Shown here: piece by piece, positions 636-825 of the stretch | How positions within the stretch are numbered: position 1 is the stretch's first letter | Layout: each line of letters begins with the position of its first letter | Assembly: GCA_905480425.1 (NCBI GenBank) | Contig: CAJQQG010000049.1 | Span: 1 to 46,641, forward strand | Reading direction: 5' to 3' | Source: an uncultured Flavobacteriaceae bacterium | GTDB lineage: Bacteria > Bacteroidota > Bacteroidia > Flavobacteriales > Flavobacteriaceae | DNA length: 46,641 nucleotides | The notes under the pieces: generated by a model | What the model saw: the letters and a program-made list of their open reading frames with translations, nothing else | What the model was told of the DNA's origin: nothing | The model's database searches: none | Program-made: the position numbers and the translations under genes

Positions 636-650
636 AGAAATAAATTAAAA

Positions 651-674
651 AAAGCGGACCCATCGGTCCGCTTT
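651..674 (-). terminator. Perfect 10-bp terminator hairpin after the 20-codon ORF
   Basis: AAAGCGGACC at 651-660 and its exact reverse complement GGTCCGCTTT at 665-674 enclose a 4-nt loop. Read on the minus strand, the stem is followed by a run of T residues (645-654 region), as in an intrinsic terminator. It lies 18 nt after the stop codon of the small ORF at 693-755 and 15 nt before the oxygenase start at 635. It therefore either ends a short transcript or acts as an attenuator for the oxygenase gene. Confidence 0.8.
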
Positions 675-692
675 GTATATAGATAAGGAATA

Positions 693-755
693 TTACAGTG
701 GTCCTAGAGTAGGTACCTGCTGTTTATTATTCCCAAAATGATTTTCATAAAACAT
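693..755 (-). CDS. 20-residue small ORF with extended Shine-Dalgarno sequence
   Basis: The minus strand encodes MFYENHFGNNKQQVPTLGPL followed by TAA. The ATG at 753-755 sits 5 nt after a 12-nt Shine-Dalgarno sequence (761-772). An in-frame TAA a few codons upstream rules out a longer ORF. The peptide has no signal or membrane segment, no Cys, and no run of one amino acid as in classical biosynthetic leaders; Asn is commonest (4 of 20). I do not recognise it. The case for translation is the ribosome-binding site, the consensus promoter upstream (818-825) and the terminator directly downstream. It could be a leader peptide, a free small protein, or a site whose purpose is ribosome binding rather than the peptide. 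Confidence 0.6.
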   Translation of the reverse strand: MFYENHFGNNKQQVPTLGPL

Positions 756-760
756 AAGAT

Positions 761-772
761 ACCTCCTTTCTA
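761..772 (-). promoter_or_regulatory. 12-nt perfect Shine-Dalgarno sequence
   Basis: On the minus strand this reads TAGAAAGGAGGT, the exact complement of the ACCUCCUUUCUA tail expected for Bacteroidota 16S rRNA. That tail is known from the group and is not in this window. The spacer to the ATG is 5 nt. No other gene start I inspected in the window has such a site; their upstream regions are AT-rich, as usual for the phylum. Confidence 0.8.
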
Positions 773-788
773 CATTAAGTTAAACTTA

Positions 789-802
789 GCTGCTGTCGCA
801 GC
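789..802 (-). repeat. Short hairpin in the 5' UTR of the small ORF
   Basis: GCTGC (789-793) and GCAGC (798-802) form a 5-bp GC-rich stem around a 4-nt loop. It lies between the inferred transcription start (about 811-814) and the Shine-Dalgarno sequence, so it may shape access to that site. The structure is seen directly; its role is inferred. Confidence 0.4.
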
Positions 803-817
803 CCGAACTTCTCAATT

Positions 818-825
818 CAAATATA
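818..825 (-). promoter_or_regulatory. -7 promoter element (TATATTTG) for the small ORF unit
   Basis: TATATTTG on the minus strand is an exact match to the Bacteroidota -7 consensus TAnnTTTG. A clear -33 TTG at the right spacing is not visible. A start about 4-7 nt downstream would give a 5' UTR of roughly 55-60 nt before the ATG at 755. It lies just after the end of the antiporter gene (stop at 851), so the small unit probably has its own promoter. Confidence 0.5.

Follow-up and report, generated by a model that had tools for sequence, protein, structure and literature searches.

The window, a 46,641-nucleotide stretch of DNA from an uncultured Flavobacteriaceae bacterium, carries on its minus strand a very small gene, conserved in relatives, in which an extended Shine-Dalgarno (SD) sequence shared with rpsU precedes an ORF of constant length and several helices covary, as judged from the sequences compared. 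We suggest, with slightly less than even confidence, that the gene yields a small RNA translated by ribosomes whose 16S tail is free, and that the act of translation is what matters, the RNA acting as a sensor or a sink for such ribosomes in competition with rpsU.

Layout and distribution of the gene

The elements lie in the order promoter box, 5′ hairpin, extended SD, ORF, post-stop box and terminator, with two further elements inside the ORF:

818..825, minus strand: promoter box TATATTTG (TAnnTTTG), a Bacteroidota-type −7 box upstream of the 5′ hairpin
789..802, minus strand: 5′ hairpin GCTGC-GACA-GCAGC with loop GACA, showing covariation
761..772, minus strand: extended SD TAGAAAGGAGGT, 12 nt
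760-756, minus strand: spacer ATCTT, 5 nt between TAGAAAGGAGGT and the ATG
693..755, minus strand: 20-codon ORF with product MFYENHFGNNKQQVPTLGPL, ATG at 755, TAA at 695-693, stop included
728..734, minus strand: SD-like element GGGAATA inside the ORF, the 5′ strand of helix P3, covarying with the post-stop box
712..717, minus strand: GGTACC within the ORF, able to pair with GGTATC (763-758; end of the SD plus spacer) as helix P2
680..692, minus strand: post-stop box TATTCCTTATCTA, complementary to both the ORF element and the SD
641..674, minus strand: intrinsic terminator with a 10-pair stem (674-651), GATG loop (664-661) and tail TTTTAATTTA

The motif TAnnTTTG, which we take to be the consensus of the Bacteroidota −7 promoter box, was used to identify TATATTTG at 825-818. 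Of 78 unique relatives, 64 have this motif, and in 56 of these it stands 17–18 nt before the TG(T/C)GACA of the hairpin. With a promoter and a terminator of its own, both recognised by sequence only, the whole unit, roughly 165 nt long between its predicted transcript ends, appears to be a small RNA gene complete in itself. The first-pass annotation had picked out TAGAAAGGAGGT at 761-772, the 5-nt spacer and the 20-codon ORF, all of which we read in the same way on the minus strand; it had overlooked the promoter box, the 5′ hairpin, the post-stop box and the terminator.

A DNA similarity search detected the gene in 33 of the 37 genomes of its genus, and the four that gave no match are 56–82% complete. 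All 34 places read in the genus (30 + 4) have GAAAGGAGG and the ORF, neither of which was demanded by the search, and this conservation rules out a chance origin of the SD site. Two more matches of the same search (a second one in G033 and one in G042) lie inside long protein ORFs and were discarded.

A scan of 84,980 species genomes for a pattern of hairpin and SD returned 85 stretches, every one of them labelled as flavobacterial or as Bacteroidetes (Flavobacteriaceae, Flavobacteriales, Flavobacteriia, Crocinitomicaceae, Cryomorphaceae, Candidatus Arcticimaribacter, MS024-2A and Bacteroidetes), and many of the record titles suggest an origin in seawater. Although the search pattern did not include the terminator loop CGATGG, 81 of the 82 matches not cut short have it (the remaining one has TGATGG), which argues that the matches are specific. 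Model R2 matched 18 of 397 Flavobacteriaceae genomes, of which 17 were accepted, in 9 of 237 genera (the eighteenth, L231, was judged a chance match); across 395 genomes of the order it matched the window's genome only, and in both R2 searches weak matches were lost to the strict filters. The accepted genomes measure 1.3–2.2 Mb as assembled. Most of the sampled Flavobacteriaceae are without the gene, and the group can therefore do without it. Another search matched 24 genomes, 11 of which carry the gene (three of them of the same genus); here eight new and four chance loci were read, and nine were judged from the printed match. Model R1 gave 30 places outside the genus, 29 of them with a locus, none of which combines SD, hairpin and box; these resemble ordinary terminators and were rejected, as were two viral-contig matches, chance matches in long protein ORFs.

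The search of relatives proposed in the first-pass annotation thus bears out the site, the ORF and the surrounding RNA, but not the peptide, whose sequence is without clear selection.

Two individual cases were noted among the relatives. In L171 the ORF stops after 7 codons at a homopolymer run, where sequencing error and real loss are indistinguishable. L144 and L147, both from UBA11891, are copies within one MAG, each characteristic of a different lineage, so that a mixed bin seems likelier than two genes.

The extended Shine-Dalgarno sequence and the 16S tail

The short SD core is of ordinary frequency in the window, where AGGAGG-N3..10-ATG occurs 3 times against 1.95 expected; it is the extended form that is unusual, AGAAAGGAGGT having a single exact match there. 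Throughout the genome (1.85 Mb, 85% complete) the pattern GAAAGGAGG-N3..9-ATG occurs exactly twice, before rpsU (bS21) and before the 20-codon ORF, and its reversal gives 0 matches, which agrees with the earlier suggestion that the ORF is a second message of this kind. In this genome rpsU has the same extended SD, GAAAGGAGGTG, the small RNA gene reading GAAAGGAGGTA. A search of nine genus members for the same pattern gave 18 matches, against 10 for the reversed pattern. Both rpsU and the small RNA gene carry the extended SD in seven of the nine, with three other sites overall; of the remaining two members, one has the site at the small RNA gene only and one (56% complete) has neither. Among genus members, L187 (G002:C9:5678-5695) is a lepA-like gene, assigned by eye, with GAAAGGAGG six bases before its ATG and a TATATTTG box upstream, and is possibly another SD-bearing gene in this one genome.

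Among relatives found by the model, and not by the SD, GGAGG is mostly kept. Six of these were read: GAGAGGAGG in two members of g180, AAAGGAGG in two of g166, and GAAAGGAGG and GAAAGGAAG in one each of g153, the g180 and g166 members being exceptions that diverge upstream of GGAGG. In a divergent copy, L230 (G669, genus g153), GGAGG is replaced by GGAAG and the hairpin is altered, and the intact form is found in another genome of the same genus (L220); L230 is possibly a decaying copy.

Searches for the 16S rRNA itself gave nothing to compare: the 16S tail pattern matched nowhere in 40 genomes, the 16S model found none in the window's genome, and a shorter tail pattern had 6 matches in 18 genomes, none of them rRNA-like. 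We think that the rRNA is missing from the searched sequences, the alternative being a different tail. That the SD would match the whole 16S tail is predicted from the Flavobacteriales tail, which we take to be TCACCTCCTTTCTA, and from the presence of the same GAAAGGAGGTG at rpsU. With this assumed tail, the computed pairing of the SD amounts to −20.0 kcal/mol.

Helices, covariation and a possible action in trans

Covariation was assessed in alignment A2, in which 46 of the 78 unique sequences remain after a redundancy filter at 0.93; the 78 themselves exclude any sequence that contains N, is cut at an end or has its T run after GATGG interrupted. The 5′ hairpin is paired in 100% of cells, with 2 pairs changed on both sides, and helix P2 in 97% of cells, with mostly G-U exchanges and one pair changed on both sides, while the terminator stem has 7 pairs changed on both sides. 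Taken together, these three helices are paired in 99.1% of cells with 10 pairs changed on both sides, and in four of five measures none of the 500 shuffles comes as high, the exception being further pair types (163/500).

Helix P3, formed by the element in ORF codons ∼7–12 and the post-stop box, covaries across lineages, with exchanges between AGGAA:TTCCT, AGGAG:CTCCT, AAGAA:TTCTT and AAAGAG:CTCTTT. Element and box of the same sequence pair at −9.00 kcal/mol, against −7.10 kcal/mol when swapped between sequences, with 0 of 2000 permutations as good (45 sequences, uncorrected for ancestry); a control region gave 1993 of 2000. P3 is unequally clear, as the automatic search picked another place in several rows, and a helix of codons 11–15 with the last codons is also better than swaps. 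The 25-codon row L096 was left out of the swap comparison, the P3 search and the SD-opening and ensemble analyses, leaving 45 sequences.

The post-stop box also appears mostly to stay complementary to the SD. The mean for SD:box is −10.1 kcal/mol against −6.0 kcal/mol for shuffled boxes, and in 28 of the 46 sequences the pairing is stronger than that of 95% of the shuffled boxes. No SD:box pair is changed on both sides, shuffles being uninformative here as the SD hardly varies, and flank covariation between SD and box is weak. A clade of eight members has P3 paired in 96 of 96 cells, two of its pairs having changed on both sides, a level that 41 of 500 shuffles reach; SD:box pairing holds there in 80 of 80 cells, and all of its changes are one-sided. 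The post-stop box of three of these eight members is TCACTCCTTTCTA, which is the tail assumed above minus one C, and that of the other five is one base off TCACTCCTTTCTA. It was also observed that one lineage (L109, L125, L137, L141, L149, L159, L160 and L176) has TATATTCAT where others have TATATTTG, together with a post-stop box that closely resembles the 16S tail.

Folding of the middle domain is somewhat more favourable than that of its shuffles, with a mean z of −1.88 over 45 sequences. Opening of the SD costs 4.55 kcal/mol, against 5.06 kcal/mol with the rest of the domain shuffled, and lies above this control in 18 of 45 sequences; energetic masking of the SD as a special feature was accordingly dropped, opening being no costlier than in the shuffled control. 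Predicted ensembles assign high probability at the same time to SD:box (mean 0.76) and to a pairing between the element and post-stop regions (0.72), so that mutual exclusion of the two is unsupported. A possible switch would be closed when the box lies on the SD and would leave the SD open when the box lies on the SD-like element of the ORF, and a translating ribosome would have to melt both pairings.

The main rival to the sensor or sink reading is a trans-acting small RNA, whose GACA and GATG loops and post-stop box would bind RNAs or a protein, for example the SD of rpsU, the ORF merely coupling the RNA to ribosomes. Both loops are nearly invariant, as such binding would predict, although both were selection criteria for those rows; the terminator loop was counted independently (81/82). 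Moreover, the box retains TCTA where the SD has lost its partner TAGA (12 genus rows). The targets are hypothetical, though, and a pure antisense RNA needs no constant ORF length, and we regard this explanation as unlikely. Inspection by eye gave no support for a kissing interaction between GACA and TGTC or for the box pairing with the SD of rpsU.

The ORF, the neighbouring genes and a possible role of translation itself

The first stop falls after 20 codons in 57 of the 78 unique sequences, after 21 in 20 and after 25 in one; the other two frames stop at scattered places. Among 80 bacterial matches, 74 have 20–21 codons, the six others being three cut at an end, one with Ns, one of 25 and one of 7 codons, and the g166 members have 19. 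The length is kept with all three stop codons in use (TAA 16, TAG 13 and TGA 3 in 32 sequences), and in alignment A2, by eye, gaps inside the ORF are of three bases, those outside it being otherwise.

Selection on the peptide sequence was undetectable by pN/pS over 36 pairs, which gave 0.63 in frame, 0.64 one base off and 1.04 two bases off, RNA pairing also constraining the same bases. The peptides are polar and variable by eye, and Pfam gave 0 families for the 3 peptides searched. Conservation thus seems to extend to translation and ORF length but not to the product, in sequences that share ancestry and whose bases are also constrained by RNA pairing. A functional peptide of about 20 residues would account for the constant length and for the recurrent M-[SF]-Y start, and RNA constraint could mask some selection upon it. 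We consider it improbable, as the in-frame pN/pS hardly differs from that one base off, the C-terminal half varies freely, and the SD-like element lies in different frames in different clades.

Improbable, too, is a structured RNA whose SD region is bound by a ribosomal protein or another ligand in autogenous control of the ORF, in the manner of the classical pseudoknots in ribosomal-protein mRNAs. Because P2 crosses P3, the SD could lie in stem 1 of an H-type pseudoknot. The exchanges in P2 are mostly G-U, P2 is rarely predicted in pseudoknot-free folds (mean probability 0.19), and there is no constant downstream gene to control.

The neighbouring genes vary. The next minus-strand gene starts at 635, past the terminator, and reads by eye as a 2OG-Fe(II) oxygenase; the upstream gene at 851-2119 reads by eye as an NhaP-type antiporter. 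With the window's two neighbours as queries, and with five of the 85 stretches too short on each side, a relative of the oxygenase was found within 900 bases downstream in 41 of 80 testable relatives and a relative of the antiporter within 700 bases upstream in 59 of 80. The small RNA gene thus persists without either neighbour. A leader peptide, as the first-pass annotation had considered, or an attenuator of the oxygenase-like gene is hardly credible and was rejected: that gene does lie downstream on the same strand in the window, but the terminator intervenes and 39 of the 80 relatives keep the RNA gene with no oxygenase relative within 900 bases.

As the peptide appears free to vary and no neighbour is fixed, the outputs that remain are ribosome engagement itself and the RNA in trans. 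We return to the former, a small RNA for which translation is the point. Transcribed from its own promoter, the gene would behave as a minimal mRNA: the 16S tail would pair with the extended SD and the ribosome would translate the ORF of 20–21 codons, the peptide itself appearing unimportant. Since Bacteroidota ribosomes normally bury the 16S tail in a pocket of bS21, bS18 and bS6, translation would fall mainly to free-tail ribosomes, for example those without bS21, which are those that read rpsU.

The closest known system is the autoregulation of rpsU by ribosomes lacking bS21 in Flavobacterium johnsoniae (PMC9976891); it is the rpsU of the window's genome that shares its extended SD with the small RNA gene. 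According to the same paper, loss of bS21 in F. johnsoniae raises reporters with a strong SD, that of rpsU included, and Flavobacteriales typically have one exceptional strong-SD gene, rpsU (PMC9976891). The F. johnsoniae work is consistent with the idea that exposed-tail ribosomes are sensed or absorbed by such a message (PMC9976891). An ORF of 20 codons would probably be overlooked by a survey of annotated genes. SDs are otherwise hardly used in this group, but rpsU and the small RNA gene both have one at start-codon distance, with a TATATTTG box a short way upstream of it. However, rpsU encodes a ribosomal protein, whereas the small RNA gene, with rpsU located elsewhere, does not encode bS21 and specifies a peptide of 19–21 residues without detectable sequence selection; unlike rpsU, it adds the hairpin, the post-stop box and intramolecular pairing.

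Other systems are more distant. The pseudoknots of E. coli rpsO and the alpha operon resemble it in a possible pseudoknot that includes the SD and early codons, but here no ribosomal protein gene lies downstream, and pseudoknot and ligand are hypothetical. Type I toxin mRNAs, for example that of Helicobacter pylori AapA1, have a very short ORF, an SD and complementary segments that can hide it, whereas the present peptide, polar and variable by eye, does not look like a membrane toxin. Coding small RNAs share the small transcript, terminator and short ORF, but not the extended SD in an SD-poor group, and any target here is hypothetical. At gathering score Rfam gave 0 matches for the window and 0 for 11 relatives, with 13 matches below it (E up to 5), and no description of the gene was found among the open-licence papers listed by the literature searches. 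Within that scope, the gene would represent a form of extended-SD control and belong to an RNA family that we did not find described.

It would be bolder, and we think it somewhat unlikely, to see here the first autonomous RNA selected for translation itself, in which a copy of the anti-SD chooses between a true and a decoy SD and which measures or absorbs bS21-deficient ribosomes alongside rpsU. The covariation suffices to design tests by point and compensatory mutations. To our knowledge, few natural examples of specialised ribosomes are available in bacteria. An evidently selected, very small strong-SD gene besides rpsU would provide a second natural read-out of free-tail ribosomes.
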